IMG/VR virus record: IMGVR_UViG_3300025769_000679
Coordinates: 1-27,077 of that record
DNA length: 27,077 nucleotides
Reading direction: 5' to 3' (one strand)
Source of the DNA: a virus
Shown here: positions 10,904 through 24,685 of the stretch, in pieces
Layout: each line of letters begins with the position of its first letter
Position numbering within the stretch: position 1 is the stretch's first letter
The notes under the pieces: model-generated
Seen by the model: the letters and a program-made list of their open reading frames with translations, nothing else
Told to the model about the DNA's origin: nothing
The model's database searches: none
Program-made: the position numbers and the translations under genes

Positions 10904-12541
10904 TCAAGCGAACACGTCAAAGTCGCCGTCGGCCTGGAAGGATGCCGGGCCTTTCCCAAAGTCCTGCCTGCCGCCCAGGCGGTCGAACTCGCCCACGCCC
11001 AGGAAGCCATAGCCCGCCCCGTCGCAGATGTGGCTTTCGTCGTTCTTGCTGGGCTTGTCGGCGTAGCGATCCTCGCCCGACACGGCCAGCCGCTTGAAGT
11101 GCCAGGCACCCATGAGCCCCTTGTGCAGCATCGGGCAGTTACGCTTGTTGACCAGGAGCCCAGGCTTGCCCTCGATCATCCGCTCGCATGGACCGGCCAG
11201 CGCCGCGATCCGCATCTTCGGGTCTTGGGTTGGCGCTGGCTCCAGGTTGATACCGTGTTGCGAGCGCAGCCAGTCGAAGCTCGCCGTCTCGAATATCTCG
11301 TCGCGCTTGCCACCCGCCGGATCGCCCCAGCCCTTGCCGGTCAGTCCCTTGGCGACGTGATCGGGGAAGTGCTGCACCAGCGCCTCGCCCACCAGCTCGC
11401 CAAAGCGCTTGATCCCCATGTCGAAGCACACCACCTCGCGGTGCGCCAACAACACGCCCTTGGGATGCCGCTGGAACAGGAGCGCCGAAGGCTGGAGCGT
11501 GCCGCCGCCAATGTCGGCCCCGATGTAGATCGGCTCGTCGGGCATGACGGGCAGGTGATCCACGCCATGCACCTGGCCGTTGTATTGCGGGACCACGCGC
11601 CGCCCGTCGGTCACGAACGTGTAGACGCCCTGGAGATAGCTCTGGATTTCCTCCAGCGTCTTGCCTGCCAGCGCGCGGCCGTAGTAGCTGCGCACCCCGA
11701 GCGGGTTCGAGCCAGCATCGACGCGGGACAGCGCGACCAGGTTCTCCTGCCAGGGGTTCACGATCCAGAACCGATCCGCCGCTCGGATCACCTCGATAGG
11801 GCACTCGACGCGCCGCACCTTGCCCCGATACCAGATCAGCACCTCGGCCGACGTGAGGCGCACGCCCTGATACTCGGGGAAATTCTCGTCCACGATCTCG
11901 GCACCGCCGCCCCTGGGCTTCACCTCCAGGACGCCGGGCGGTTGCTGGTGGAAGCTGTAGCCCTCGGGCGTCTCGCGGTGATGCCAGCCGTAGAGCCAAT
12001 GATCGGCGTCAGGCGGGTTGGTGTCGCCCCAGATGCCGCTCCAGGTGGTCGGGCGCTCGTTCACCCCGAACCGGCCGACACGCTCGGTCAAGCGGGTAAT
12101 GACGGATCGCGGCACCTCGCGCATCTCGTTGATGAAGGCCCCGGTCAGCTCCAGCGATAGGAGCTTCTTCACGTCCTTGGGCTTGTCGAGCGCGATCAGG
12201 TTGACCTCGATCTCCAGGTCGGAGTTGCGCGGCTGGATCATGTGCGTGGCCGGGGATCGCCAGATGATATCCCCGAACGCATCCGAGGGATAAATCTGTT
12301 GATAGGTCACGGCCGTTGTGGATCGCAGCTCGGGCATGGTGTTGCGGATCACCGCGAAGCGCGACCGACGTTTGCCGTCGTCGCTGGGCGCTTGCTCCTG
12401 GCCGAGATCGAGGATGCGCTGGAGGCCGGGCACCGACTTGCCGGAGCCGACCGGCCCGATGATGAACGACGCGAACGCGCGATCCTGCTTGTAGGCCCAG
12501 GCCACCGGGCTCGTCTCGTAGGTCCAGGTCTGCGTCACCAT
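10904..12541 (-). CDS. terL: Terminase large subunit
   Basis: The ATP-driven packaging motor and headful or end-cutting nuclease. From ATG 12541 (MVTQTWTYETSPVAWAYK, GGAG eight bases upstream) it is 545 residues, normal for the family. Walker A is GPVGSGKS (29-36); the Walker B-type segment is LELTGAFINE (130-139), with the acidic residue after the hydrophobic strand. Around residue 340 IYIGADIGGGTLQPSALLF is the first strand of the RNase H-like nuclease domain, with its metal-binding Asp; further acidic residues near the C-terminus (YADKPSKNDESHICD) complete it. An upstream in-frame ATG at 12592 would overlap the previous short frame and lacks a ribosome site. It follows the small terminase by a few short genes. 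Confidence 0.94.
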   Translation of the reverse strand: MVTQTWTYETSPVAWAYKQDRAFASFIIGPVGSGKSVPGLQRILDLGQEQAPSDDGKRRSRFAVIRNTMPELRSTTAVTYQQIYPSDAFGDIIWRSPATHMIQPRNSDLEIEVNLIALDKPKDVKKLLSLELTGAFINEMREVPRSVITRLTERVGRFGVNERPTTWSGIWGDTNPPDADHWLYGWHHRETPEGYSFHQQPPGVLEVKPRGGGAEIVDENFPEYQGVRLTSAEVLIWYRGKVRRVECPIEVIRAADRFWIVNPWQENLVALSRVDAGSNPLGVRSYYGRALAGKTLEEIQSYLQGVYTFVTDGRRVVPQYNGQVHGVDHLPVMPDEPIYIGADIGGGTLQPSALLFQRHPKGVLLAHREVVCFDMGIKRFGELVGEALVQHFPDHVAKGLTGKGWGDPAGGKRDEIFETASFDWLRSQHGINLEPAPTQDPKMRIAALAGPCERMIEGKPGLLVNKRNCPMLHKGLMGAWHFKRLAVSGEDRYADKPSKNDESHICDGAGYGFLGVGEFDRLGGRQDFGKGPASFQADGDFDVFA

Positions 12542-12636
12542 CCGGCCAGCTCCAACACCGTGAGCGCGAGCTTGATCGCCCCGGCCGCGCATGACGCCGC
12601 CAGGACGGAACGCCCGATGATCCGATAGGCCGTCAC
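12535..12636 (-). CDS. Possible 33-residue membrane peptide between two genes
   Basis: A short frame with a GTG start (12636) in a GTGA overlap with the preceding stop and a TGA that overlaps the terminase ATG (ATGGTGA). It would encode a peptide with one hydrophobic span (IIGRSVLAASCAAGAIKLAL, then TVLELAGW). Without it the terminase start would be isolated by about 90 bases, unusual in this compact block, while with it the coupling chain is unbroken. An AAGG-type ribosome site is present but weak. Supported by gene packing only. Confidence 0.4.
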   Translation of the reverse strand: MTAYRIIGRSVLAASCAAGAIKLALTVLELAGW

Positions 12637-12911
12637 CGCTTCACCTTCGCCTTGATCGCCAGGTAATCCACGATCCTCTCCCCGTCCCCGTTGCGCTCGG
12701 CCGTGATCCGCTGCGTCAGGAGGCAGAGCCCGCGATCATGCAGGAGCATTGCCGCGCGCTTCACCGTCGTGGGCGCAGAACCGGCCGAGCCGCGATGATA
12801 CACCACCAAGTCGCCAGGCTCCACGCGGTCGAGCGCCTGGGCGATCACCGCTTCCTCGCTGCCTGGTGCGATCTTCTCGATCCTGACCTCCTGCCTCACG
12901 CGATCATCCAT
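12633..12911 (-). CDS. Unknown protein upstream of the large terminase
   Basis: A 92-residue protein from ATG 12911 (MDDRVRQEVRIEKIAPGSEE), with GGGGGG about eight bases upstream. Segments EPGDLVVYHRGSAGSAPTTV, AAMLLHDRGLCLLTQRIT and RIVDYLAIKAK suggest a compact alpha/beta or winged-helix-like fold, with 'GDLVVYHRG' as its most distinctive motif; similar short proteins occur near terminase genes in alphaproteobacterial phages but are uncharacterised to my knowledge. It overlaps the preceding gene by 16 bases. An earlier in-frame ATG would create a much longer overlap and has no site. Confidence 0.65.
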   Translation of the reverse strand: MDDRVRQEVRIEKIAPGSEEAVIAQALDRVEPGDLVVYHRGSAGSAPTTVKRAAMLLHDRGLCLLTQRITAERNGDGERIVDYLAIKAKVKR

Positions 12912-13174
12912 GCCAGAGCCCCCCAGACGCCAAGCCCGACCGCGATCCAGATCAGGTGCCAAGCCAGCGGGCCGCGACCCAGCTCTGAGAACTCGCCCCG
13001 AGCCGGGCAATCCCTGCCTTGGTTGCAGTCGTGGTTGCACGGCGGACAGCGCAAGTCACTTGCGCCTCCTGTGCGGGCCGCTGAGCGCCCTTGCACCTTC
13101 TCGGCACCCTCGGCCCGCGAATGCCCAATCACGCGCCCACGCGGCGCTCCTGCGCTGTTCTCTGCCCTATTCAT
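12896..13174 (-). CDS. Cys-rich protein with C-terminal membrane span
   Basis: A 92-residue protein starting at ATG 13174, with GGAG seven bases upstream and the start overlapping the small-terminase stop. The N-terminal 40 residues are basic and Ala/Gly-rich. A cysteine cluster CPPCNHDCNQGRDCP follows (about residues 43-57); 'CNQGRDC' motifs recur in short phage and plasmid proteins. The C-terminus is a single hydrophobic span (WHLIWIAVGLGVWGALAWMI). It may be a membrane-anchored metal-binding protein with the cluster in the cytoplasm, but the function is unknown. Part of its coding sequence (13049-13065) forms a palindrome shared with two other sites in the window. Confidence 0.62.
   Translation of the reverse strand: MNRAENSAGAPRGRVIGHSRAEGAEKVQGRSAARTGGASDLRCPPCNHDCNQGRDCPARGEFSELGRGPLAWHLIWIAVGLGVWGALAWMIA
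13049..13065. repeat. CAAGTCACTTG palindrome, copy 1
   Basis: A 17-base palindrome with 8-base arms GCGCAAGT and ACTTGCGC around a single central C, inside the coding region of the Cys-rich membrane protein. The core (13052-13062) is identical to the cores at 14916-14926 and 20749-20759, with the centre base in the same orientation. Confidence 0.75.
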
Positions 13175-13637
13175 CGTCGTCTCCTTCCGGTTGCCACTTG
13201 GGGATCGCCTTGATCGCCTCCCCGTATGCGGGCGGGATCACTCTCACCTCGAAGCCGTCGCCCGTGCCGCCTTCTCGATCTTCTCGGCCGTAGCCGTGGT
13301 TCACTTCCAGGGCGAACTTGGCCCCGTTCGATGCCTCCCGAGCGTAAAGCGCTTCTTCTGCGAACTCTGCGATCCGCATCTTGGCGCGCGCGATGATCGG
13401 GATAAATGCTGGATCGCGTGGCTCGTCTCCCCTGCCATAGTGCATGAGCGTCACCCGTGTGCATCCGAGCGCGAGTGCGAGCCCTGCCATCGTTGGGGGC
13501 ACCTGGTATTCTTCCTCGTATGGGTCTCCATCGCGCGGATAGATTTTGCGCTTGCGCACCCGGCTCTGGAAATACTCCTCGATCCTCTGCTCCAGCTCCT
13601 CGGGATCGGTGAAGGCGAGCTGCCCGCGTTTTGCCAT
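13167..13637 (-). CDS. terS: Terminase small subunit
   Basis: A 156-residue protein resembling P22 gp3/DUF-type small terminases, which bind the packaging site and load the large subunit. The N-terminal part (LAFTDPEELEQRIEEYFQSR) leads to a helix-turn-helix-like segment PPTMAGLALALGCTRVTLMH; then FIPIIARAKMRIAEFAEEAL and SNGAKFALEVNHGYGRED, where 'iF.LKn.fGw' stands in relatives. The C-terminus is acidic (EGDDDE). Two adjacent ATGs exist; the second (13637) has the better spacing to AGGAGG and forms a TGATG junction with the initiator-like gene. The large subunit lies three short genes downstream. Confidence 0.83.
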   Translation of the reverse strand: MAKRGQLAFTDPEELEQRIEEYFQSRVRKRKIYPRDGDPYEEEYQVPPTMAGLALALGCTRVTLMHYGRGDEPRDPAFIPIIARAKMRIAEFAEEALYAREASNGAKFALEVNHGYGREDREGGTGDGFEVRVIPPAYGEAIKAIPKWQPEGDDDE

Positions 13638-14509
13638 CATGCCCCTCCTCGTTCTGCCAGGCGCTGCCGTAGGTGTGCGAGCGCTTCATCCCCGATGTTC
13701 TTCATGCCGCCCGACCGACCGCTATTAGCGGGCGGGGAGGGAGGGCGGCTTTGCGAACCCTCTCCCCCTTGGAACCCCCTCTCCGTGGTCTTGTCCGTGA
13801 TCTTATCCGTGGTCTTGGTCTTATCCGTGGTCTTTTCCTTTTCCTTATTCTTTTCCGTATCCGTTATATCGCTAGGGCTTCCGATAGGGGTATGGGATAG
13901 GGGTATCAGTAGGGCTTCCCCGAGGCGGTCGAGCGTGTTTGCGTCGAGCCCGATCTCTTGCGAGGTGAGCATCGGTTCGAGCTTCATCTCCTTGACCAGA
14001 TCAGCGGCTGTGCTGTCGAAACCGCCCATCGCTTCGAGGATTTTCTGGGCCTCGACGTGATCGCTGCGCTGTTCGCTGTGCCGGAGCCTTGATGCCTTCT
14101 CGCGCCATTCCTCGCGGCGCTCGAACATGGCAAGGATCAGATCGCAGGCGGCGCAGTCTCTGACGGGTGAGTAAGGCAGGGCCTGGATTATGCGCACCGG
14201 GCCTTGCAGGTGCTTTCGGCTGGAGATCGAGTTGAACCGGAAGAAGTTGACGATCTGGATCAGCTCCTCCTCGGGGTCGTATCGGATCAGGCGCGCGTCG
14301 GCCAAGTTGACGAACGCGGCGCGCACATCGTCGGCCGGAACTTTCAGCTCCAGCGCTGCCATTTCTGGCGGCAGGACAAACGCCCCGGCGCTGTTGCCGT
14401 GTGTGGTGGTGTGCAGGTAGAGGTAGACCAGGCGCGCGAGATCGCTTTCGAGCTGCCGAAACCTCTTGCTGCGCCAGATCGAGCTGGAGATGATGCCGAA
14501 CTGTCTCAC
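13637..14509 (-). CDS. Replication initiator-like protein (winged-helix N-terminus)
   Basis: A 290-residue protein with a GTG start at 14509 (VRQFGIISSSIWRSKRFRQL); the ribosome site is weak. Residues 1-110 match the N-terminal winged-helix pattern of phage replication proteins: 'ARLVYLYLHTTTHGNSAGAF', LPPEMAALELKVPADDVRAA, then DARLIRYDPEEELIQIVNFF. Such O-like proteins bind the origin and recruit a helicase loader. The C-terminal 80 residues are a charged, Lys/Thr-rich linker (TTDKTKTTDKITDKTTERG) and a basic tail, with no helicase motifs. The linker is encoded by repeated DNA that may itself be the origin. It is unusual that the gene sits in the same leftward block as the packaging genes. 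Confidence 0.7.
   Translation of the reverse strand: MRQFGIISSSIWRSKRFRQLESDLARLVYLYLHTTTHGNSAGAFVLPPEMAALELKVPADDVRAAFVNLADARLIRYDPEEELIQIVNFFRFNSISSRKHLQGPVRIIQALPYSPVRDCAACDLILAMFERREEWREKASRLRHSEQRSDHVEAQKILEAMGGFDSTAADLVKEMKLEPMLTSQEIGLDANTLDRLGEALLIPLSHTPIGSPSDITDTEKNKEKEKTTDKTKTTDKITDKTTERGFQGGEGSQSRPPSPPANSGRSGGMKNIGDEALAHLRQRLAERGGA
13782..13870. repeat. Iteron-like direct repeats plus T-rich tract; candidate replication origin
   Basis: Four copies of TCCGTGRTCTT start at 13782, 13794, 13806 and 13824 on the plus strand (second copy has A at the variable position), spaced 12, 12 and 18 bases. They are followed by a strongly pyrimidine-biased, AT-richer stretch (13831-13870) of T-runs broken by CC, ending in TTATATCGC. 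The repeats lie in the linker part of the initiator-like gene (residues about 213-243). This is the same arrangement as the lambda origin inside gene O. The same DNA also encodes Lys/Thr-rich protein, so a coding explanation remains possible. Confidence 0.45.
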
Positions 14510-14513
14510 GGGA

Positions 14514-14732
14514 TCACCGCCCTGACGGTTCCGGCACCGCCTCCAGGTTCTCGACCAGGGCGCGGATCGCATCGCCCTTCGACTTCCAGAGGTGATAGCT
14601 CGCGCCGCTCGCGCGCTTCATCTCCGCTTCCGAAAGCTCGGAACCACCGGCCAAGATGATCTTGACCGCAGCCCCCAGAACGTTGAGATCGGCGGCCATG
14701 ACCGGCCCCGCGTTGTGAATGTGCAGGCTCAT
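14514..14732 (-). CDS. Unknown small protein
   Basis: A 72-residue protein from ATG 14732 (MSLHIHNAGPVMAADLNVLG), chosen for AGGAG six bases upstream and the ATGA overlap with the preceding stop. An alternative ATG eight codons earlier is less well placed. It is predicted alpha-helical (AAVKIILAGGSELSEAEMKR, KSKGDAIRALVENLEAV). No motif identifies it; the length and location just upstream of the initiator-like gene would allow a small DNA-binding regulator, but no helix-turn-helix can be claimed from inspection. Confidence 0.6.
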   Translation of the reverse strand: MSLHIHNAGPVMAADLNVLGAAVKIILAGGSELSEAEMKRASGASYHLWKSKGDAIRALVENLEAVPEPSGR

Positions 14733-14968
14733 GCTTTGCTCCTGAATTGCGGGCACGCTTGCGCTGTCGCGCCGACGAACTGCGCGCCGTTCGACCTCAA
14801 CAGCTCTCGCGACTTGGCGCAGCGGCCGTAACCCTTGGCCAGCCTACCATCCGACACGTCTCGGTCGGTGAAGTAATCGCAGGCGGCGCATTTCTTTCGC
14901 GTGCCAAGCTCCGGCCAAGTCACTTGGCCGGGCGTGTGCAGCTTCATCCGTTGTTCGAGATCGCTCAT
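14729..14968 (-). CDS. Small Cys-containing protein
   Basis: A 79-residue protein with ATG 14968 in an ATGA overlap with the preceding gene and its own stop overlapping the next ATG. Cysteines occur as CAAC (27-30), then singly at about 50 and 72 (GYGRCAKSR, ACPQFRSK), a four-Cys set that could bind one zinc ion although the spacing is not a standard ribbon. Similar short 'KCAACDYFTDR...GRC' proteins are seen in phages and prophages as hypotheticals. Part of its coding DNA (14911-14931) is a 21-base palindrome. Confidence 0.62.
   Translation of the reverse strand: MSDLEQRMKLHTPGQVTWPELGTRKKCAACDYFTDRDVSDGRLAKGYGRCAKSRELLRSNGAQFVGATAQACPQFRSKA
14911..14931. repeat. CAAGTCACTTG palindrome, copy 2
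   Basis: A perfect 21-base palindrome with 10-base arms CCGGCCAAGT and ACTTGGCCGG around a central C. The core at 14916-14926 equals copies 1 and 3; the outer arm bases differ from theirs but are still self-complementary, so symmetry rather than sequence is preserved outside the core. Confidence 0.8.
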
Positions 14969-15327
14969 TCCTTCGGTGCCTTCTTCTGGAACTGTTCCCG
15001 GCGCAGCGTGACCGCGCCGCCCTCACCAATCTCCGGCGCTTCCTCGGCAAAGCGCATCGCCGTGACGCGCGCCCGGCTGAGAACCGTGGCCAGGTATGCG
15101 GCCAGCCGCTCCTCGGTGGTGTGCGTTTTCGTGGGCTCGAACTCCTCCACGATCCAGCGCGCGACCCTGGGCTTGACCGGGATCGTCACAGTGAAGTCGG
15201 CCGGGACCGTGGGCTTCGGTGCCAGCTCGTCCTCGGCGCGGATCATCGCGTCGGTGAGGCTGATCTTGCGCTCGGCTGCGATTTCGCGCGCTCTGGCCAG
15301 GATTTTTTCGTCTGTGTTGTCAGTCAC
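14965..15327 (-). CDS. First gene of the leftward block; unknown
   Basis: A 120-residue protein with a GTG start at 15327 and AAGGAG seven bases upstream, so it is the promoter-proximal gene of the leftward operon. The N-terminal half is a charged helix (KILARAREIAAERKISLTDA); the middle has a beta-like stretch DFTVTIPVKPRVARWIVEEF; then a helix with TEERLAAYLATVLSRARVTA. The 'VTIPVKPRVARWI' segment recurs in small alphaproteobacterial phage proteins of unknown role. Being first in the operon, an early regulatory function is possible but unproved. No enzyme motif is seen. Confidence 0.68.
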   Translation of the reverse strand: MTDNTDEKILARAREIAAERKISLTDAMIRAEDELAPKPTVPADFTVTIPVKPRVARWIVEEFEPTKTHTTEERLAAYLATVLSRARVTAMRFAEEAPEIGEGGAVTLRREQFQKKAPKE

Positions 15328-15351
15328 TTGCTCACTCCTTGGTAAATTTCT

Positions 15352-15380
15352 CGCTTATATTTGCAAAATATCTATTGCAA
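15352..15380 (-). promoter_or_regulatory. Possible leftward promoter of the packaging block
   Basis: On the minus strand TTGCAA (15380-15375) stands 15 bases before TATAAG (15359-15354), five of six matches to TATAAT but with short spacing; at 17 bases the hexamer is TAAGCG. The location, about 25 bases before the leading GTG gene of the leftward block and in the only AT-rich stretch nearby, is the main support. Confidence 0.4.
15361..15380. promoter_or_regulatory. TTGCAA-N8-TTGCAA operator-like element
   Basis: TTGCAA at 15361-15366 and again at 15375-15380, 14 bases apart centre to centre. TTGCAA is self-complementary, so the pair reads equally as a direct or an inverted repeat, and the 8-base spacer is also partly symmetric. 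It lies between divergent genes and overlaps both candidate promoters, as expected of an operator. No repressor gene is visible in the window. Confidence 0.45.
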
Positions 15381-15403
15381 GGGCAAGCGTGATCTGATCT
15401 AAC
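15375..15403 (+). promoter_or_regulatory. Possible rightward promoter of the recombination block
   Basis: TTGCAA (15375-15380), a 17-base spacer and TCTAAC (15398-15403), four of six matches at each hexamer, 45 bases before the ATG of the DUF3560 gene. It would use the same palindromic TTGCAA as the leftward candidate, so the two promoters would overlap back to back. Confidence 0.4.
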
Positions 15404-15448
15404 CATTGTTGCAGGGCGTCGAGCCCGAGCGATAACGGAGGTTCCCAG

Positions 15449-16396
15449 ATGCAATTTGACCTGTTCGACCAAGGCAGCGAAAGCCAGCCCGGCAACCGGC
15501 AAACCGATCTGGAGATGCTGATCGAGGAGAAAGCGATGAACCATTACGAACGGAAACAGGAAGCCCGGCGCGAGCGGTTGCTTGCAGCGGCCGAGCGGGC
15601 AGAAGCCCAGAGCGAGGCGGCATACAAGCGCGCCGATCTGCGCGAGGAGGTGTCCGGCATCCCCTTCGGCCAGCCGATCTTGGTCGGCCACCACTCCGAG
15701 GGACGGCACCGCGCCGCGATCCGGCGGGCAGACAACGCCATGCGGGCGAGCATCGAGGCCGATAAACGGGCCAAGGAACTGCGCGGCAAGGCGGCAGGTG
15801 TCGGCCAAGGTGGCATCAGCTCCGACGACCCCGACGCGATCCAGAAGCTTCAAGCCCAGATCGACGCGGCCAAGGGCAGTCAGGAGTTTATGAAGGCGGC
15901 GAACAAAGCGATCCGCGCAGCCTGGAAGCACGGCGTTCGGTTCGATGGCCCCGCCGAGGATATCGAGATCGCCCAGAAAGCGCTCGCCAAAGCCTGCGGC
16001 CGTGAGTTTTCCGAGGCCGAGGCCCGGTCGATGCTCAAGCCTGACTTTGCCAACCGGATCGGCTTTGCCGACTACCAAATGAGCAACAACCTGGCCAACA
16101 TCAAGCGGATGGAGAAGCGGATCGCCCAGCTCCAGGCCAACGCCAAGCGCGCCGAGGCAGCAGGCGGCGAGGAAAAGCGGGTCCGGTATCAGGGCGTTTG
16201 CGAGGTGGTCGAAAACTTCGAGGAGAACCGGCTCCAGATCGTTTTCGACGGCAAGCCCAGCGCCGAGGTTCGGGCCGAGCTGAAAAGCAACGGGTTCCGG
16301 TGGGCACCCAGCCAGGAAGCCTGGCAGCGGCAGCTCAACAACGGCGCGCGCTACGCGGCCAAGCGGTTCTTGATCTCGCAAGGGATCGAAGCCTGA
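15449..16396 (+). CDS. DUF3560 domain protein
   Basis: A 315-residue protein, first gene of the rightward block, with GGAGG 7-8 bases before the ATG. The N-terminal half is the DUF3560 domain: NHYERKQEARRERLLAAAER (31-50) and the signature IPFGQPILVGHHSEGRHR (71-88), followed by a long charged helical region. The C-terminal part has a second conserved block, VCEVVENFEENRLQIVFDGK, then LKSNGFRWAPSQEAWQRQL (about 275-293). Both blocks are common on alphaproteobacterial plasmids and in some phages; the biochemical function is unknown. The GHHSE...RHR motif looks catalytic or ligand-binding, but that is inference. The first residues (MQFDLFDQ) sit in an AT-poor context like the rest of the block. 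Confidence 0.88.
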   Translation: MQFDLFDQGSESQPGNRQTDLEMLIEEKAMNHYERKQEARRERLLAAAERAEAQSEAAYKRADLREEVSGIPFGQPILVGHHSEGRHRAAIRRADNAMRASIEADKRAKELRGKAAGVGQGGISSDDPDAIQKLQAQIDAAKGSQEFMKAANKAIRAAWKHGVRFDGPAEDIEIAQKALAKACGREFSEAEARSMLKPDFANRIGFADYQMSNNLANIKRMEKRIAQLQANAKRAEAAGGEEKRVRYQGVCEVVENFEENRLQIVFDGKPSAEVRAELKSNGFRWAPSQEAWQRQLNNGARYAAKRFLISQGIEA

Positions 16397-16457
16397 CGCG
16401 TCGGTGAGGGGCGGCAAGCCCGCCCCCATCCCATGCGCCAGAACAGAGGAGAGCGAC

Positions 16458-16799
16458 ATGCAGTTTCGGAAACTTTTTGAAGGCAAGGCCAGCGAGGTCA
16501 AGACCTTCGAGCTTATCAATCGCGGGTATTCGCCGGACGTGTTCCGGGCCGGTGACTTCTTCGAGATCGGGGAGGAGGAATATTGGTATTTCCTGGAGTG
16601 CCTGCCCCCGATGGATTTCGCCCTGGGCGGCTTCTCCATGTGCGAGTTTGCAACCGGCAACCTGACCAACGCCTTTTTTGAGCGTGACGGCCGGTTCTGG
16701 TGCCTGACCATCGAGCGCAAGAGCGCGGCAGATTTCGACGCCTGGGCGCGCGCTTTCTCGCCGGTCGCTTTTTACCAGAACGAACGGGCCGAAGCATGA
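16458..16799 (+). CDS. DUF1419-like protein
   Basis: A 113-residue protein starting at ATG 16458 (MQFRKLFEGKASEVKTFELI), chosen for GAGGAG six to seven bases upstream. It matches the DUF1419 pattern known from rhizobial plasmids: 'RKlFEG' at the start, GDFFEIGEEEYWYFLECLPP in the middle and FSMCEFATGNLTNAFFERDG toward the end. No function has been assigned to the family as far as I know. The following gene starts inside its stop (GCATGAG), so the two are probably co-translated. Confidence 0.75.
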   Translation: MQFRKLFEGKASEVKTFELINRGYSPDVFRAGDFFEIGEEEYWYFLECLPPMDFALGGFSMCEFATGNLTNAFFERDGRFWCLTIERKSAADFDAWARAFSPVAFYQNERAEA

Positions 16800-17041
16800 G
16801 CCGCAAGCCGCACTATGCCGAGATCGCGGACGCGACGAGCCAACACGCCGACGCTTCGCCCCCGCCCTACACCGCGCAGACCGTCACCAACAAGCACGGC
16901 AAGAACGTGTTGCGCTTGAGCTTTAAGAACTTCGAGGCGCTGGAGCGCTTTTTCATGGACGAGCTGATCGGCTCCGACGCCATGAAGGGCAGCGCCTCGA
17001 AAGTGATCGGCACCACCCTGCTGATCTGGGAACGCAACTGA
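16796..17041 (+). CDS. Unknown small protein
   Basis: An 81-residue protein with ATG at 16796 in an ATGA overlap with the DUF1419-like stop; the ribosome site is weak (GAAG), consistent with coupling. It begins with a polar, probably flexible segment (MSRKPHYAEIADATSQHADA) and then has a folded part VLRLSFKNFEALERFFMDEL followed by KGSASKVIGTTLLIWERN. No recognised family. The amphipathic pattern fits a small alpha/beta domain. Confidence 0.62.
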   Translation: MSRKPHYAEIADATSQHADASPPPYTAQTVTNKHGKNVLRLSFKNFEALERFFMDELIGSDAMKGSASKVIGTTLLIWERN

Positions 17042-17063
17042 AACCACGAAAGGACAACACCCC

Positions 17064-17477
17064 ATGCAACACCTGTTCGAGACTATGACGGCCACCTGTG
17101 ACGAGCTGGCCAAGCTGATGGCGGATCGCGGGATCATCATCCCGTCGGCCGCAATCGAGGCGCGCAGCGGCCACCGCACCGCGCGCGTGATGCTCAACTT
17201 CGCCAAGGCGGGCGATAGCTACCCTGGCCAGTATGAGTTTTTCACCGGCGACACCATCGAGGAAACCGTGGAGAAAGCCGAGGCGTGGGTGCGCAGCCAG
17301 CCGACGGCCGAGGAGCGTGCGCTTAAGGATGCGCTCGACATGACCGCCAAAGCGCTGGAGGCCAGCCGCAAGGCCGGGCTCGACACCGGCGAGGGAGCGG
17401 CGTTCGTCGCCCAGCTCGAAGCCATGATGAAGCGTTTGAGCGAGAACGCGATCACCGACCAGCGCGAGGCGAGCTGA
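17064..17477 (+). CDS. Unknown helical protein
   Basis: A 137-residue protein, 22 bases after the previous stop, with AAAGGA before the ATG. Residues 1-75 include TATCDELAKLMADRGIIIPS and RTARVMLNFAKAGDSYPGQY, then the helix DTIEETVEKAEAWVRSQPTA; the second half is one long helix (LKDALDMTAKALEASRKAGL). Short proteins with a 'F.GdT.ee...kA..wi...P' pattern recur in phage and plasmid early regions without known function. Its stop overlaps the next start (TGATG). Confidence 0.66.
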   Translation: MQHLFETMTATCDELAKLMADRGIIIPSAAIEARSGHRTARVMLNFAKAGDSYPGQYEFFTGDTIEETVEKAEAWVRSQPTAEERALKDALDMTAKALEASRKAGLDTGEGAAFVAQLEAMMKRLSENAITDQREAS

Positions 17478-17725
17478 TGGCACGCGGAACCGCAACCCAC
17501 AGCGGCGAGGAGATCGAGGTGGCGTTCAGCGCCACCGGCGTTCTCTCCGACTATGGCGTGGACCGCTCGCCAACCTGGATTGAGTGGGAGGATATCGAGA
17601 TCGAGGAGCTAACGATCCTTGGCTTCAAGGTCGATCCGAAGATCCTGCCCGACGAGCTTGTGGAGGCGATCCGCGAGCTGGCCGACGAACTCGAATTTGA
17701 AGCCGAGGAGCCGGACTATGACTGA
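17477..17725 (+). CDS. Highly acidic small protein
   Basis: An 82-residue protein with ATG 17477 in a TGATG overlap. The net charge is strongly negative: WIEWEDIEIEELTILGFKVD and ELVEAIRELADELEFEAEEP carry long acidic runs, with very few basic residues. Small acidic phage proteins sometimes mimic DNA and inhibit host DNA-binding proteins, such as Ocr or restriction inhibitors; nothing here beyond charge and size supports that, so it stays a suggestion. The gene is followed by another ATG inside its 3' end. Confidence 0.62.
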   Translation: MARGTATHSGEEIEVAFSATGVLSDYGVDRSPTWIEWEDIEIEELTILGFKVDPKILPDELVEAIRELADELEFEAEEPDYD

Positions 17726-17930
17726 CGCCAAGCGGACCGTTCCCCAGGTGGAGCTTGTCGCTTTCGTCCAGGATGGAGGCGGCACCACCCCCGCCACCAT
17801 CTTGATCGAGGGCGCGGCACCGCTGTTCGCCCTGTCTGCCTTCGCCATGAAGGCAATAGCCAGCCAGCACCCGCACCTGGGCGGCAAGCCCATCGTGGCG
17901 CTGCGCTATTCGGTGGAGGCGCGGCCGTGA
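17718..17930 (+). CDS. Unknown small protein
   Basis: A 70-residue protein with ATG 17718, overlapping the acidic gene's stop by eight bases. It reads MTDAKRTVPQVELVAFVQDG, then ATILIEGAAPLFALSAFAMK, a moderately hydrophobic stretch that is probably buried rather than membrane-spanning, and ends PIVALRYSVEARP. It ends in a GTGA overlap with the next gene. Not recognised; compact predicted alpha/beta fold. Confidence 0.6.
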   Translation: MTDAKRTVPQVELVAFVQDGGGTTPATILIEGAAPLFALSAFAMKAIASQHPHLGGKPIVALRYSVEARP

Positions 17931-18148
17931 AGCGTTGCGCATGGCATGAGTGCGGCCGGGCTTTCGAGCCCGCCGACCCCCGGCAAGAGTTTTGCTGCCC
18001 CGATTGCCGCAAGGCACGGGGCGCATGGAAGGCTCGGCGCGGCGGTCCACTGGTGGACATGCTGCTGGAGGGCGACGTGGACGCGCTGATGGAAGCAAAG
18101 CGCAAGATCAAAAAGGAGATCGAAGATGCAGCTACCCCAACTGATTGA
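17927..18148 (+). CDS. Small zinc-finger protein
   Basis: A 73-residue protein with a GTG start (17927) in a GTGA overlap and GGAGG seven bases upstream. The N-terminus is a zinc finger: CAWHEC (4-9) with a second pair FCCPDC (about 22-27), followed by a conserved basic strip RKARGAWKARRGGPLVDMLL. Such short CxxxxC...CxxC proteins are common in phage early regions and probably bind nucleic acid. The C-terminal helix (MEAKRKIKKEIEDAATPTD) overlaps the start of the PD-(D/E)XK gene by 23 bases. Confidence 0.68.
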   Translation: MKRCAWHECGRAFEPADPRQEFCCPDCRKARGAWKARRGGPLVDMLLEGDVDALMEAKRKIKKEIEDAATPTD

Positions 18149-19115
18149 GGGCATGGATTTTGCCACCTACCTGGCTGATCCGATGCCGGAGCCGAGCCTG
18201 ACCAGCTCGCTTGTGAAAGAACTTCTCGGCACCGCGCCGCGCAAGGTCTGGCAGAACACCGCCCGGCTCAACAAGGACGCCGAAAGCGAGGAGAAAACGA
18301 TCTTCGACCTGGGCTCGGCCGCGCATCGGCTGTTCACCGGCACCGGCGCGCCCATTGTCGAGATCGACGCGGCCGACTTCCGGTCGAAGGCTGCGAAGGA
18401 AGCCAAGGACGAAGCCTACGCCCAGGGCAAGACACCGATCCTGGCGAAGAACATGCCGCGCGTGCGGGCAATGGCGAAGGCGGCGCTCGACCAGGTGCGA
18501 GACAATCCCGAGATCGGGCACCTGTTCTCGCGCGACAACCAGGCGAAGCTCCTGCGCGAAGCCACGATGCTCTGGCAGGAAAGCGGCGTCATGTGCCGGA
18601 GCCGCCCCGACTTCTACTCGCCCGAGGAGAACGTGGTGATCCACTACAAAACCACCGGCACCAATATCGCGCCGGTGACGCTCGCCAAGTTTGCCGCCAA
18701 TTCCGGCTGGGACATGACGGCCGCGCACTATCACCAGGGCGCGAAGCTCCTGACCGGCACCGCGCCGCGCCAGTATTTCGTGGTGCAGGAGACGGCCGAG
18801 CCGCATCTTCTGCTGACGGCCGAGATCGACAGCACGTTCCTGGAGACAGCGCTGATGCGCCGCGAGCGCGCGCTGATGATCTGGGGCCGGTGCCTGCGCG
18901 AGAATACCTGGCCCGGCATGATCTCCAAGACGATCAAGCTGGAGTGCCCAGAATGGCACGAACGCAACCTGATCGCGGAGAAGGATGCCGAGGAAGCGGC
19001 CAAGTCGGCAGGCACCGATCTGCTGGAGATGATGCGCACCTGGCAGGCACCCGAAGGCTGGCAACCCGCCGCCGTACAGGGCCAGAGCCGTGACGAGAAG
19101 GACGTGATCGAATGA
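18126..19115 (+). CDS. RecE/DUF3799-type PD-(D/E)XK protein with altered active site
   Basis: A 329-residue protein resembling phage exonucleases of the RecE C-terminal/DUF3799 type, which resect double-stranded ends for single-strand annealing recombination. Landmarks: GSAAHRLF with H67, LLREATMLW with E145, RPDF with D162, VVIHYKTT with K175, and DMTAAHYHQG near 196-205. The family usually has D-x-K where this protein has H173-Y-K175, and usually Q-A-A-Y/H-Y where it has T198-A-A-H-Y. Both changes affect residues expected to take part in metal binding or catalysis. GGAG lies seven bases before the ATG. It overlaps the next gene (ATGA), an annealing-type ATPase, so the pair forms a recombination module. 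Confidence 0.82.
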   Translation: MQLPQLIEGMDFATYLADPMPEPSLTSSLVKELLGTAPRKVWQNTARLNKDAESEEKTIFDLGSAAHRLFTGTGAPIVEIDAADFRSKAAKEAKDEAYAQGKTPILAKNMPRVRAMAKAALDQVRDNPEIGHLFSRDNQAKLLREATMLWQESGVMCRSRPDFYSPEENVVIHYKTTGTNIAPVTLAKFAANSGWDMTAAHYHQGAKLLTGTAPRQYFVVQETAEPHLLLTAEIDSTFLETALMRRERALMIWGRCLRENTWPGMISKTIKLECPEWHERNLIAEKDAEEAAKSAGTDLLEMMRTWQAPEGWQPAAVQGQSRDEKDVIE

Positions 19116-20002
19116 GCTTCACCTTCAACACGGCCGAGCGCCGCAACACGCACCTGCTGGTGGCCCTTGCGGGGGCCTCCGGCAGCGGCAAGACGTTCAG
19201 CGCCATGAACCTGGCGACAGGGATTTGCGGCGACAAGCCGTTTGCCGTGATCGACACCGAGGCAGGCCGCGCCCTGCACTATGCCGATCAATTCAATTTC
19301 AAGCACGCCGACTTCGCGCCACCCTTCACGCCGGAGCGCTACCTGGAGGCGGTGAAGGCGGCAGAGAAGGCCGGGTTCGAGGCGATTGTGATCGACAGCA
19401 TGAGCCACGAATTTGACGGCCAGGGCGGGATCATGGACATGGCCGAGGCGTCCAGCGTGAAAGGCCCAGGCGCATGGAAAGACCCCAAGATGCGCCACAA
19501 GAAGATGATGAACGCCTTTCTCCAGGTGCGCGCGCATCTGATCTTCTGCCTGCGGGCCGAGGAGAAGATCGACATGAGCAAGAAGGATGATCGCGGCCGT
19601 GTGATCGTGGAAAACGCGGGCTGGTTTCCGATCCAGGAAAAGCGGTTCATGTATGAAATGACCGCCAGCTTCACGCTCAACCCCAGCTCGCCCGGCGTGG
19701 TCGATCTCACCTTGCCGCACAAGGTCCAGGACCAGCACCGCATGAGCTTCCTTCCCGGCCGTCACATCACGGCCGAGGCGGGATCAAAGCTCGCAGCCTG
19801 GGCGCGCGGTGACACCATCACGACGCCCGACAAGGAGCTGTGGGATCGTGCCAGGCGGATCGCCCACGACGGGATCGAGAAGATCACCACCTTTTTCACG
19901 AAGGTCGCCACCGAGGAGGAGCGGGCAGCGCTCCAGCCGATCAAGCGCGAGCTGTGGGAAACGGCCAAGCGGGCAGACGAGAACCGTGGCGAGCTGGGCT
20001 GA
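19112..20002 (+). CDS. Sak4-like RecA-fold ATPase (single-strand annealing/recombination)
   Basis: A 296-residue P-loop ATPase. Walker A is GASGSGKT (21-28); AVIDTEAGRALHYAD (45-59) carries the conserved acidic residue after the second strand; Walker B is AIVIDSMSHE (91-100). The order and size match Sak4-type phage recombinases, RecA-core proteins that act with ssDNA-binding proteins in annealing. The C-terminal part (DKELWDRARRIAHDGIEKIT, then ATEEERAALQPIKRELWETA) is a charged helical region. It sits directly behind the RecE-like protein and before an HNH endonuclease. The assignment to Sak4 rather than another AAA/RecA group is by pattern. Confidence 0.83.
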   Translation: MSFTFNTAERRNTHLLVALAGASGSGKTFSAMNLATGICGDKPFAVIDTEAGRALHYADQFNFKHADFAPPFTPERYLEAVKAAEKAGFEAIVIDSMSHEFDGQGGIMDMAEASSVKGPGAWKDPKMRHKKMMNAFLQVRAHLIFCLRAEEKIDMSKKDDRGRVIVENAGWFPIQEKRFMYEMTASFTLNPSSPGVVDLTLPHKVQDQHRMSFLPGRHITAEAGSKLAAWARGDTITTPDKELWDRARRIAHDGIEKITTFFTKVATEEERAALQPIKRELWETAKRADENRGELG

Positions 20003-20460
20003 TGCGATCCAAGACCAGCGGCGAGCGGCGCAGGATGATGCGCCGCTACGTCGAGAACGAGGAGCTGTGGTGCAGGTGCTGCGGTCGGCCCATGTGGTTC
20101 CGTGGCCTGGAGAGCCGGGGCCGGTTTGTCGGCCGCTGGCAGCAAGCATGGGGCAGCTTCCGCGAGCCGAACGCTGCCGTGATCGAGCAATCCATCGCTA
20201 CGGTGGATCACCTGATCCCGAAATGCCGCAACGGCACCCACCATCCGCGCAACCTGATGCTCATGTGCCAGGGATGCAATTCGGATAAGGCGCACATGAC
20301 GCCGAGCGAATGGATCGCGCACCGCGCCGCGACCGGGCGAGCCTTGAAGAAGGAGATCATCGCCAAGCTCTTGAAGCGCGAACGAAAGGCGATCCGCCAG
20401 ATCGGCGGGCCGTCCATGATCTACCACCCACCAAGCCACAAAGGAGAAACCGATGGCTGA
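20002..20460 (+). CDS. HNH endonuclease
   Basis: A 152-residue protein starting at ATG 20002 in a TGATG overlap with the ATPase stop; an earlier in-frame start would lie inside that gene without a ribosome site. Zinc ligands are CRCC (24-27) and CQGC (89-92), which pair up around the HNH core. The core reads TVDHLIPKCRNGTHH (D69-H70), HPRNLMLMC with N84, and the following His of SDKAHMT (98). The basic C-terminal helix (LKKEIIAKLLKRERKAIRQ) may bind DNA. HNH proteins in phages act in packaging, in recombination or as homing endonucleases; placement beside recombination genes suggests the second, but this is inference. Confidence 0.85.
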   Translation: MRSKTSGERRRMMRRYVENEELWCRCCGRPMWFRGLESRGRFVGRWQQAWGSFREPNAAVIEQSIATVDHLIPKCRNGTHHPRNLMLMCQGCNSDKAHMTPSEWIAHRAATGRALKKEIIAKLLKRERKAIRQIGGPSMIYHPPSHKGETDG

Positions 20461-20734
20461 CGACAAGACCAAGCCCGAGAAGGACGACGACAACGCTTTC
20501 GCTGCAATCGACATGACGCAGCCGGTGTTCATCGTGTTCCACCAGACGGAGACGCGGAACAATATCGAGGTGTTCCAGGGACCGGACGCCGAGGCCAACG
20601 CCAAGGCGCGCGCAAGCCAGAAGGCGGTGCGCACGAAGGCGAAGGTCGCCGTCCTCGGCCCCCAGCGCGCGGTCTATGAGCCGCCCGAGCCGTCGAAGGC
20701 GAAGGAAGTCCAGCTCGATTGGCTGGGCGAGTAA
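20453..20734 (+). CDS. Unknown protein at the end of the rightward block
   Basis: A 93-residue protein with AAAGGAG before ATG 20453, overlapping the HNH stop by eight bases. It starts with a very acidic, lysine-containing segment (MADDKTKPEKDDDNAFAAID), then a probable fold PVFIVFHQTETRNNIEVFQG and AEANAKARASQKAVRTKAKV, and ends EPSKAKEVQLDWLGE. The acidic terminus recalls phage ssDNA-binding proteins, which often have acidic tails and accompany annealing proteins, but here the acidic stretch is N-terminal and no OB-fold can be claimed. Confidence 0.62.
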   Translation: MADDKTKPEKDDDNAFAAIDMTQPVFIVFHQTETRNNIEVFQGPDAEANAKARASQKAVRTKAKVAVLGPQRAVYEPPEPSKAKEVQLDWLGE

Positions 20735-20741
20735 CACTAAG

Positions 20742-20766
20742 GCGGGCGCAAGTCACTTGCGCCCGC
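20742..20766. repeat. CAAGTCACTTG palindrome, copy 3 (convergent junction)
   Basis: A perfect 25-base palindrome with 12-base arms GCGGGCGCAAGT and ACTTGCGCCCGC around a central C, between the convergent rightward and leftward blocks. It shares its core (20749-20759) with copies 1 and 2 and eight-base arms with copy 1. It could form a strong hairpin, but neither strand has a U-tract after it, so it is not a standard intrinsic terminator. The remaining bases to 20805 hold nothing else that I recognise. Confidence 0.85.
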
Positions 20767-20805
20767 TGTGCTGGCCGAAGATCGGGAACGCAAGGCGCGG
20801 ATGGG

Positions 20806-21129
20806 TCAGTGATCGTTCCGGCTGGCTATCGCGGAGAGAAGCGCATCTAGCCGCGTGTTCGTGGCCTTGGTCGCCTCGCGTTGCTCCTTGCGCATCTCGC
20901 GCATGTCGCTCGATAGCCTGGTCAGATGCCCGTCGAGGTCCGACTTCTGCACCGTGTCCTCGCGCACGCGGTTGATCCTGGCGTGCAGCTCTTTCGAGCT
21001 GTTGTCCATTTCATCCTCCACCCGCCGGATCATCGACACCAAACGCCAGAACGCACCGATCAAGATCGAGCCCCACCCCAGCGTCAAAGTCACGGCAATG
21101 CCGATCACCCATTTCCAGTCCTCACCCAT
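20806..21129 (-). CDS. Membrane/coiled-coil protein of the lysis cassette
   Basis: A 107-residue protein with GGGGG five bases before ATG 21129, directly after the Rz1-like stop. An N-terminal membrane span ([20 protein letters not shown]) is followed by a long charged helix with coiled-coil spacing ([40 protein letters not shown]). The topology would suit an inner-membrane lysis accessory. With a better i-spanin candidate next door, its role (holin-associated or otherwise) remains open. Confidence 0.7.
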
Positions 21130-22354: not shown

Positions 22355-24685
22355 CTACATGATAATATAACTGAATTCTTCGTCGCCAACTGCCGCCGTG
22401 TTATCCGCCGTTTTCACCTGAAATGACGTTCCCGCTACCAGATTTGTGACATACAGGGATTTTGTGCTGCCCTGCAAATCTGCGGCATGATAATTGGTTG
22501 GCGTCAGAAGCACCACCGAACCAGAGTGAATATTGCCATTACTCACCGTCAGGGAGGTCCCCGCCGCCATGGTAAAGGTTCCTTTGTGCGGGGAACTATC
22601 TGACGTGCGCGGCATAATCACTTCATCGCGCGAGTTCGCCAAAGAGAACGGGCCGGTCAGGTTTCCGACTGCCGTATGTAGGTGGATCTTGTTGTCGTTT
22701 GCGCCGCCCGCTGTTTTCACGCCATATGGCTGCGTTTTGGTGCCTTGACCATCATTTGTGCGACACCCAATCAGCTTGTTCTTATCGCCGTTGTTGATGT
22801 AAATCCCGGCGTCACCGTTTGTCGTTGCTTGCGTGCAATTGTCGTTGGCGTCCACATCTGTCAGCGTGTTGTCGATTGCCGTGGCGCCGTCCAGAAGGAC
22901 ACCCGGCCCTTCGCGCGTTCCCGTCAGAATGGACGACGACAACTTGTTGCGAGCGCCTTGGATGCGGATACCCGCCGACTTCACGCCATCCGCGATTGCG
23001 CCGATAAACACGTTTTCTTCACTGGTGCTATCGCTGTCGATAAGATAGCCGATATGCGTCGTGTCTTCGGCCACAGGTGCGGCCCCGCTGATCAAGCAGC
23101 GCTTGGCCCCTTCCAGTTTCACAACCGCGTCAACGTACCGGCCTTGAACGCCGTACGCTTTCACCCGCTCACTGTTTTTGATGTGCAGACAGTATTCCGG
23201 CCCAGCCGTCAAAGCTTCGACGTTCATCCTAAGGCCAAACAGTTCGACTTGGGTGCAGTCCTCGATGACAAGCGTTGTGCGCGAGCAGCGTTCCGCCTTC
23301 ATGTTGTTGAGATTGACGATGTGGCATTCTTTCAGAACGCCGCCACCGATCTGATCGCCCGTCGCGCTGTCCACTTCCCAAAGGATGCTAGACATATCGA
23401 CATAGCCGGTGCGCTCAAGCCAAAACGCTTCTTCGGCGGTGTTGACGATAAAGAAGTTCTCGAAAGACGATCCGTTGAAACAAGCGTAGTCCGTTCCCGT
23501 GGCCAAGCTATCATAGCAATACAGCGCCCGCTGCACCTTATCCACTTGCACCCCATCGCACCGCCAGTTGAAACAGTTGCGATTTGCCTGAATAGCGTTG
23601 CCCGTGAAATTGAAAAACCGAACGCCGGAGATATACACATCCCGGGTGCGCGCTGCGTCGATCCCCGCATCAGCCACGCCGCCGCCTTCAATAGCGAGGT
23701 TGCGAAGTCCGAACTGATGATAAGTGTTCACGGATCGGTTCAGGTCAATGGCGTGGGCCGCTGATGTTTTCTGTTCGATCTTGGTCCCCTTAGAGGACGT
23801 GGTGTCAAACTGTGAAACGTAGCCGTCACCCTCGATAATGACCGGGACGTCTGTTGGCGGGTCAAGCGCCTCGTCAATCGCGTAGTGCCCGGCGGGCAAG
23901 CGCAGAACACCGCCGCCGCCGTCCTGCATCCGCGCAAACGCATCCGCAAACTTGTCGCTATTGGTCGCCGCATTCGTGCCGTCGGTGGACGGCGCAAAGG
24001 CTTCAAAGTTATAAACGCCGCCGCTGTCACGAAGGATTTTCAAGAGAGCCGGTGCCGCCGCTGCGTTCTGCACGTCGCCGCCGCTTGCAACCTCTTGGTA
24101 AGAGTGGACGCCGCCGTGCCAAATCGACCCGACGCCGCGCTGCGCCTCCGACCCGGCCAACAGCGCGGCCACGCTGGAGTAAAGGACCTTTTCGCCCGCA
24201 GTGAACACTGGGCTTATACTGTAGTTTGTTAAGTCCCCATTGCTATCCCACCCGATAAGGCGTGACGCTGTGGGCGTTAATACGGTATTTGCAGAGGCTG
24301 ACCGCGAAATTTGCAGCGCCCGCGAGGCAAGCGTGGCACGGCGCTGCATGGCCTGCCAGAGCCGGTCCATTTCGATATTGAAAGGCCCGCTCTTGAACTC
24401 GCCGCGAAGCTGCATGTCGGAGCTGCGCTCCAGTGGCACGGCCAGGTAGATCGAATATGCGTCGGTCCCGTTCGCCGCCGTGGTCAGCGTGACAACGCCC
24501 GAGCTGCTGCCCGCGCCTGCAACCGTGTAATCGGTATTCAGCACCAGCGGCGTTTCAGAACCCGACTTGTAGACCTCCAGCCAGCCTGCCTCCCAGCCTG
24601 TCCCGTCGAAGTCTAGCGAGATCGTGGTGACGCCCGCAGCCGGAGTGAGCGGCCCTACGACTAGATCGTTCTCTGAAACCGCCAT
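22355..24685 (-). CDS. Tailspike/tail fibre with parallel beta-helix domain
   Basis: A 776-residue receptor-binding protein. Residues 1-125 resemble the T7-type fibre N-terminal virion-binding domain: LEVYKSGSETPLVLNTDYTV, VPLERSSDMQLRGEF and FNIEMDRLWQAMQRRATLAS. From about 215 (FEAFAPSTDGTNAATNSDKF) to about 680 it reads as a right-handed parallel beta-helix with pectate-lyase-like repeats (GLRNLAIEGGG, VRFFNFTGNAI, then several 'N.i.gc...' turns), as in spikes that degrade capsule or O-antigen. The C-terminal 90 residues are beta-rich (GSVVLLTPTNYHAADL, FQVKTADN), perhaps a trimerisation part. GC falls clearly across the helix compared with its flanks. Substrate unknown. Confidence 0.87.
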   Translation of the reverse strand: MAVSENDLVVGPLTPAAGVTTISLDFDGTGWEAGWLEVYKSGSETPLVLNTDYTVAGAGSSSGVVTLTTAANGTDAYSIYLAVPLERSSDMQLRGEFKSGPFNIEMDRLWQAMQRRATLASRALQISRSASANTVLTPTASRLIGWDSNGDLTNYSISPVFTAGEKVLYSSVAALLAGSEAQRGVGSIWHGGVHSYQEVASGGDVQNAAAAPALLKILRDSGGVYNFEAFAPSTDGTNAATNSDKFADAFARMQDGGGGVLRLPAGHYAIDEALDPPTDVPVIIEGDGYVSQFDTTSSKGTKIEQKTSAAHAIDLNRSVNTYHQFGLRNLAIEGGGVADAGIDAARTRDVYISGVRFFNFTGNAIQANRNCFNWRCDGVQVDKVQRALYCYDSLATGTDYACFNGSSFENFFIVNTAEEAFWLERTGYVDMSSILWEVDSATGDQIGGGVLKECHIVNLNNMKAERCSRTTLVIEDCTQVELFGLRMNVEALTAGPEYCLHIKNSERVKAYGVQGRYVDAVVKLEGAKRCLISGAAPVAEDTTHIGYLIDSDSTSEENVFIGAIADGVKSAGIRIQGARNKLSSSILTGTREGPGVLLDGATAIDNTLTDVDANDNCTQATTNGDAGIYINNGDKNKLIGCRTNDGQGTKTQPYGVKTAGGANDNKIHLHTAVGNLTGPFSLANSRDEVIMPRTSDSSPHKGTFTMAAGTSLTVSNGNIHSGSVVLLTPTNYHAADLQGSTKSLYVTNLVAGTSFQVKTADNTAAVGDEEFSYIIM

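Follow-up and report, generated by a model that had tools for sequence, protein, structure and literature searches.

Two short palindromes that share a core sequence, one between the terminase genes and the other at the end of the early genes, appear to form a real, family-specific and paired recognition element in a group of podophages. We place the probability of this reading at about 0.85. The DNA analyzed here (the window) is the entire IMG/VR record IMGVR_UViG_3300025769_000679, 27,077 bases in length. It represents part of a podophage akin to 'Dunaliella viridis virus SI2' (TerL 72%, internal virion protein 62%).

The palindromes and their genomic context

A preliminary description of this DNA had reported three exact palindromes with arms of 8, 10, and 12 bases around a common core, and a direct scan confirmed their coordinates. 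The sequence CAAGTCACTTG is common to all three perfect odd palindromes, which are the only perfect palindromes with a one-base centre and arms of at least 8 bases in the whole window. They are as follows:

13049..13065, site 1, GCGCAAGT-c-ACTTGCGC, core copy kept in relatives, in the TerS-TerL interval
14911..14931, site 2, CCGGCCAAGT-c-ACTTGGCCGG, not conserved
20742..20766, site 3, GCGGGCGCAAGT-c-ACTTGCGCCCGC, hairpin kept in relatives, located at a convergent gene junction and bearing the core at its tip

The core had been estimated to be rarer by chance than is seen, and two kinds of control agree with this estimate. Dinucleotide shuffles predicted 0.25 core matches even when up to one mismatch was allowed. 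Order-3 Markov simulations yielded 0.01 exact cores per window and about one odd palindrome of any sequence with arms of at least 8 bases; two long palindromes with common inner five bases were obtained in none of 300 runs.

The gene context given earlier was also borne out. Sites 1 and 2 are inside minus-strand open reading frames (12896-13174 and 14729-14968, respectively), and site 3 is between convergent reading frames (20453-20734 on the plus strand and 20806-21129 on the minus strand). The minus strand encodes both terminase subunits as well as portal, major capsid, tail, and lysis proteins. The plus strand from 15.4 kb carries a primase-like gene, an exonuclease, a Sak4-like ATPase, an HNH gene, and small early genes. 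The features relevant to the three sites are listed below:

10904..12592, minus strand, terminase large subunit (TerL; phrog_2; relatives 59-97%)
12896..13174, minus strand, small ORF containing site 1 (peptide ..ASDL..; hydrophobic C-terminus)
13069..13073, plus strand, CTGTG adjoining site 1 (CTG at +12 to +14 from the palindrome centre)
13167..13640, minus strand, terminase small subunit (TerS) of the P22 gp3 type (PF16677, E 2.4e-14; phrog_606, E 1.8e-15)
14729..14968, minus strand, ORF containing site 2 (orthologues in G009, G018, G023, SI2, and G019)
20035..20460, plus strand, HNH endonuclease gene, two genes upstream of site 3 (PF01844, E 5.8e-7; start codon approximate)
20453..20734, plus strand, last early gene before site 3, ending 7 bases ahead of the palindrome
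20777..20812, plus strand, remnant of a zinc-finger-like gene (11 C-terminal residues)
20806..21129, minus strand, convergent gene on the far side of site 3

Two further features of the window were observed. The tail protein encoded at 22355-24685 weakly matches K1-lyase_C at its C-terminus (E 5e-5, under the curated cut-off) and is possibly a capsule-degrading tailspike. An AT-rich motif, TTGCAATAGATATTTTGCAAATATAA (minus strand), is located at about 15345-15405 between the divergent early genes. It is conserved in close relatives and is likely an early promoter or operator.

The comparison set consisted of about 35 related records. Close relatives are found on contigs binned with two Rhodobacteraceae MAGs, and based on this binning the hosts may be Rhodobacteraceae. 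The genomes appear to be circularly permuted, since the contigs of relatives break at different points and some possess terminal overlaps.

Conservation and sequence constraint

Conservation of position and symmetry among relatives had been named as a test of the palindromes; sites 1 and 3 retain both, and site 2 does not. Sites 1 and 3 occupy fixed positions across SI2-like podophages, in the TerS-TerL interval and at the end of the rightward early genes. In the 34.5-kb genome G006, apparently complete because of its 127-base terminal overlap, exact cores number two and are located precisely at sites 1 and 3. Two position-conserved copies of this kind are consistent with a repressor set. Site 3 is kept and site 1 is absent in G018 and G015, and both sites are absent from the more distant G023, G019, G020, and SI2.

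When GCGCAAGTCACTTGCGC was searched in 2.9 million IMG/VR contigs, 9 contigs matched, and only L146 is outside the SI2-like group; the motif is essentially restricted to the SI2-like clade. Matches in L100, L146, and L153 were rejected, the contigs being unrelated. A host-wide motif was ruled out by copy counts in the two Rhodobacteraceae MAGs (0 and 1 copies of GCAAGTSACTTGC) and by the frequency of AAGTNACTT, which was not above that of a reversed-pattern control. Rfam searches at gathering and relaxed thresholds returned nothing relevant, and a literature text search for the core sequence retrieved no phage paper by title.

The site-1 alignment included 13 distinct sequences, with the window's own site 3 left out. 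In 13 of 13, GCAAGTGACTTGC (minus strand) is invariant. The same is true of GCACAG, five bases before the core on the minus strand, where site 3 of relatives has ATACAG. The core encodes the residues ASDL, and their spelling as GCA AGT GAC TTG, in which GCA, AGT, and TTG are uncommon codons in the window, has a probability of 1.8e-4 by window codon usage; all 13 sequences have it. A DNA-level constraint on the site-1 core is evident from the aligned codons. The surrounding small ORF is a mosaic of variously combined N- and C-terminal modules around a retained middle segment, at the end of which is site 1. The CTG at +12 to +14 is retained at every site 1 among the relatives, that of L155 included; G018 and G015 are the only ones without it at site 3.

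Pairing past the core at site 1 is no better than in shuffled sequences. Only about six pairs form, no GC-rich covarying hairpin is found, and no T-run follows. The possibility that site 1 is a decayed copy of the zinc-finger gene start at site 3 was rejected, as there was no significant match. A physical genome end at site 1 was ruled out, as contig starts near TerL differ between relatives.

Site 3 is non-coding. When its arms are aligned on the centre, 97.1% of cells pair and four pairs are changed on both sides. This pairing was matched by none of 500 shuffles, and slid controls were far lower. No variation is seen in the three pairs nearest the centre (A-G-T with A-C-T), and the tip is AAGT.ACTT. 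The outer arms form a covarying hairpin, so on this evidence they are part of the palindrome structure rather than of a binding word. Because pairing beyond the core at site 1 does not exceed that of shuffles, the fixed core is, by these comparisons, what the two sites have in common, and the long stem is a property of site 3. The GC-rich hairpin with compensating changes is of the kind expected for an intrinsic terminator, and a terminator scan picked site 3. The T-run is weak and on the minus strand in the window; in G015 the hairpin is followed by TTTTT. The position and the G015 tail suggest that site 3 is a terminator. The central C on the plus strand, described as common to the three palindromes, is indeed present at all of them in the window but is not preserved at site 3 of relatives. 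Some similar phages have C and others G, and T is also found, as expected for a dimer reading the dyad.

An inversion was observed at the same palindrome. Between 2846 and 3282, contigs L142 and L144 are identical but for three positions, all of them inside the site-3 palindrome. The three differences equal an exact inversion of the 25-mer at about 2950-2974, which is the site 3 of G007 and G004. Hairpin inversion is possible by template switching, with no recombinase needed, and minute inversions at hairpins occur in chloroplast DNA. The phage case is similar in that a hairpin is exactly inverted between near-identical genomes. It differs in that this is phage DNA and the inverted segment bears a conserved recognition core.

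The best evidence for a common reader comes from L155 (TerL 81%). Its site 3 reads GTAAGTTACTTAC and its site 1 TTAAGTGACTTAC, with TAAGTGACTTA as the site-1 counterpart of the invariant core. The only repeated odd palindrome in its 14.4-kb locus is TAAGTNACTTA, which occurs in two copies, at both orthologous loci. Both half-sites of the dyad are changed at each locus, so that in this one lineage the site sequence has changed in step, as would be expected for a repressor set. A single trans-acting reader of both sites would explain the change best.

The earlier proposal of a protein-binding site is thus strengthened for sites 1 and 3 by their loci, their core, and the symmetric, concerted change in L155; it does not extend to site 2 or to the half-sites. 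The half-sites at 237, 10137, and 15322, once listed as related elements, are neither degenerate palindromes nor conserved, and lack of conservation ruled them out as weak operators. The 15322 half-site corresponds to the GTG start region of ORF 14965-15327, and relatives do not retain it.

Site 2 spans codons of PGQVTWPE, and the core is read there (QVTW) in another frame than at site 1. The peptide PGQ(V/I)TWPE is conserved in orthologues, including that of G023, a phage without the sites. The probability that the codons of PGQVTWP produce a perfect palindrome with 8-base arms is 0.22, and the probability that they produce the exact core is 0.006. The nearest relative, G009, has CAA GTC ACC TGG (CAAGTCACCTGG), and its palindrome is broken. 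Because the codons are near-palindromic and the nearest relative breaks the palindrome, site 2 is probably a by-product of coding for a conserved peptide, outside the recognition system. Given the low probability of the exact core it may be a recent, lineage-specific third site, but we favour coincidence. Chance or coding bias, which probably holds for site 2, is hardly credible as the origin of all three palindromes; at sites 1 and 3 it is contradicted by conservation, concerted change, and the simulations.

Candidate readers and alternative explanations

Three genes near site 3 were considered as candidate binders. The zinc-finger-like gene (97 aa) starts 39 bases from the site-3 centre in most relatives and is deleted in the window. 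Its distribution is the best match to that of the sites among the neighbour genes. A structural model of the protein (pLDDT 79, pTM 0.59) had no informative PDB match, with none better than E = 2 in Foldseek. A known DNA-binding fold was rejected for this protein, Foldseek being uninformative and GcrA matching only at E 0.02-0.05. The HNH gene is present in many site-bearing phages, but it is deleted in G006 and G005 (23-residue remnant) and was not found in G013. The gene at 20453 is also missing from G013, which bears the sites. For each of the three neighbours there is a site-bearing phage that lacks it; none is therefore present throughout, and the sites require none of them. No promoter was evident beside site 1 or site 3.

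The sites could be read as RNA. The tip GCAAGU-N-ACUUGC would then be bound as an mRNA hairpin, for example by the zinc-finger-like protein, which would control its own leader and the late transcript. The covarying stem at site 3, the location of the hairpin within the zinc-finger-like gene leader in most relatives, and the placement of both sites inside transcribed units are consistent with this. We nevertheless consider it unlikely: the window has lost the zinc-finger-like gene yet kept both sites, in G029 the gene and a hairpin occur in the absence of the core, site 1 forms about six pairs only, and the protein has no family or fold match pointing to RNA binding. A role in packaging, with site 1 as the pac of a headful phage and site 3 as a second or decoy copy, is decidedly unlikely. 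Site 1 is 113 bases from a TerS of the P22 gp3 family, a location suited to a pac, and the genomes appear to be circularly permuted. However, G015 and G018 possess TerS, TerL, and site 3 but not site 1, so that relatives with the same terminase can lack the supposed pac. In P22 the pac sequence is asymmetric and located inside the TerS gene (PMC9611059), whereas the present sites are palindromic, are outside that gene, and number two per genome. The site-3 stem, moreover, covaries as a terminator would.

We give little credence to the view that the sites are intrinsic terminators only, with site 3 an ordinary bidirectional terminator and site 1 its relic copy. Site 3 does resemble the intrinsic (Rho-independent) terminators of convergent phage operons in its gene-end position, its GC-rich covarying stem, its detection by the terminator scan, and the T-run of G015. 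In addition, about 17 flanking bases are common to sites 1 and 3 in several relatives. But a terminator requires a stem, not a fixed tip, and here the tip is fixed and common to a second locus, and the T-run is weak or absent in the window. Site 1 is nearly stemless, has no T-run, and is invariant; the two sites have no significant homology past the near flank, and the concerted change in L155 also argues against this view. It is very improbable that the sites serve in exchange or maturation as substrates of a nuclease or recombinase of the phage, the HNH protein for example. An HNH gene does occur in many site-bearing phages, gene modules are swapped on either side of site 1, and the site-3 palindrome is inverted between phages. 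Yet G006, G005, and G013 keep both sites with the HNH gene deleted or absent, and template switching can account for the inversion.

Proposed role of the paired sites

Based on these comparisons, our preferred reading is that sites 1 and 3 belong together as a pair, YAAGTNACTTR with CTG 12 bases from the centre, which would be read by one trans-acting, most likely homodimeric, DNA-binding protein. Two divergent early units start near 15.33-15.45 kb, with the sites at their outer ends. Site 1 is on the leftward unit, past TerS and ahead of TerL, and site 3 is past the last rightward early gene. The bound sites would likely serve as a roadblock or operator between early transcription and the late and structural genes. 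The GC-rich hairpin of site 3, with the core at its tip, would in addition terminate transcription where the genes converge. The odds that a dimeric DNA-binding protein reads the pair where early transcription has its limits seem to us about even; protein binding, the dimeric state, and the transcriptional effect are each inferred.

The closest parallel may be drawn with the stoperators of L5 and other Cluster A mycobacteriophages. A genome can have up to about 30 of these asymmetric 13-bp sites, which are bound by a known repressor; they are mostly in one orientation to transcription, and most are away from promoters (PMC6550527, PMC9283540). The sites described here are likewise short, identical, and dispersed, and their sequence differs between relatives and is uniform within a genome. 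They are unlike a stoperator-type set in being palindromic and only two in number. The CTG extension has the same direction on the genome at both sites, hence opposite directions on the two early units. Two sites per genome are few for a repressor system. A more specific version, which we regard as tentative and rather doubtful, is a two-site switch in which one phage protein, reading the palindrome at the two far ends of the divergent early region, delimits early transcription or links it to packaging at the TerS-TerL border, and in which one of the sites is also a terminator hairpin with an orientation that flips in the population.

As far as could be found, no regulator of SI2-like podophages of marine bacteria has been described in the literature. 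The conserved pair of sites offers a direct means of isolating the protein and of mapping early/late control or packaging in these phages. The case of L155 indicates that comparative data can show a shift in the specificity of a phage protein before its gene is known.
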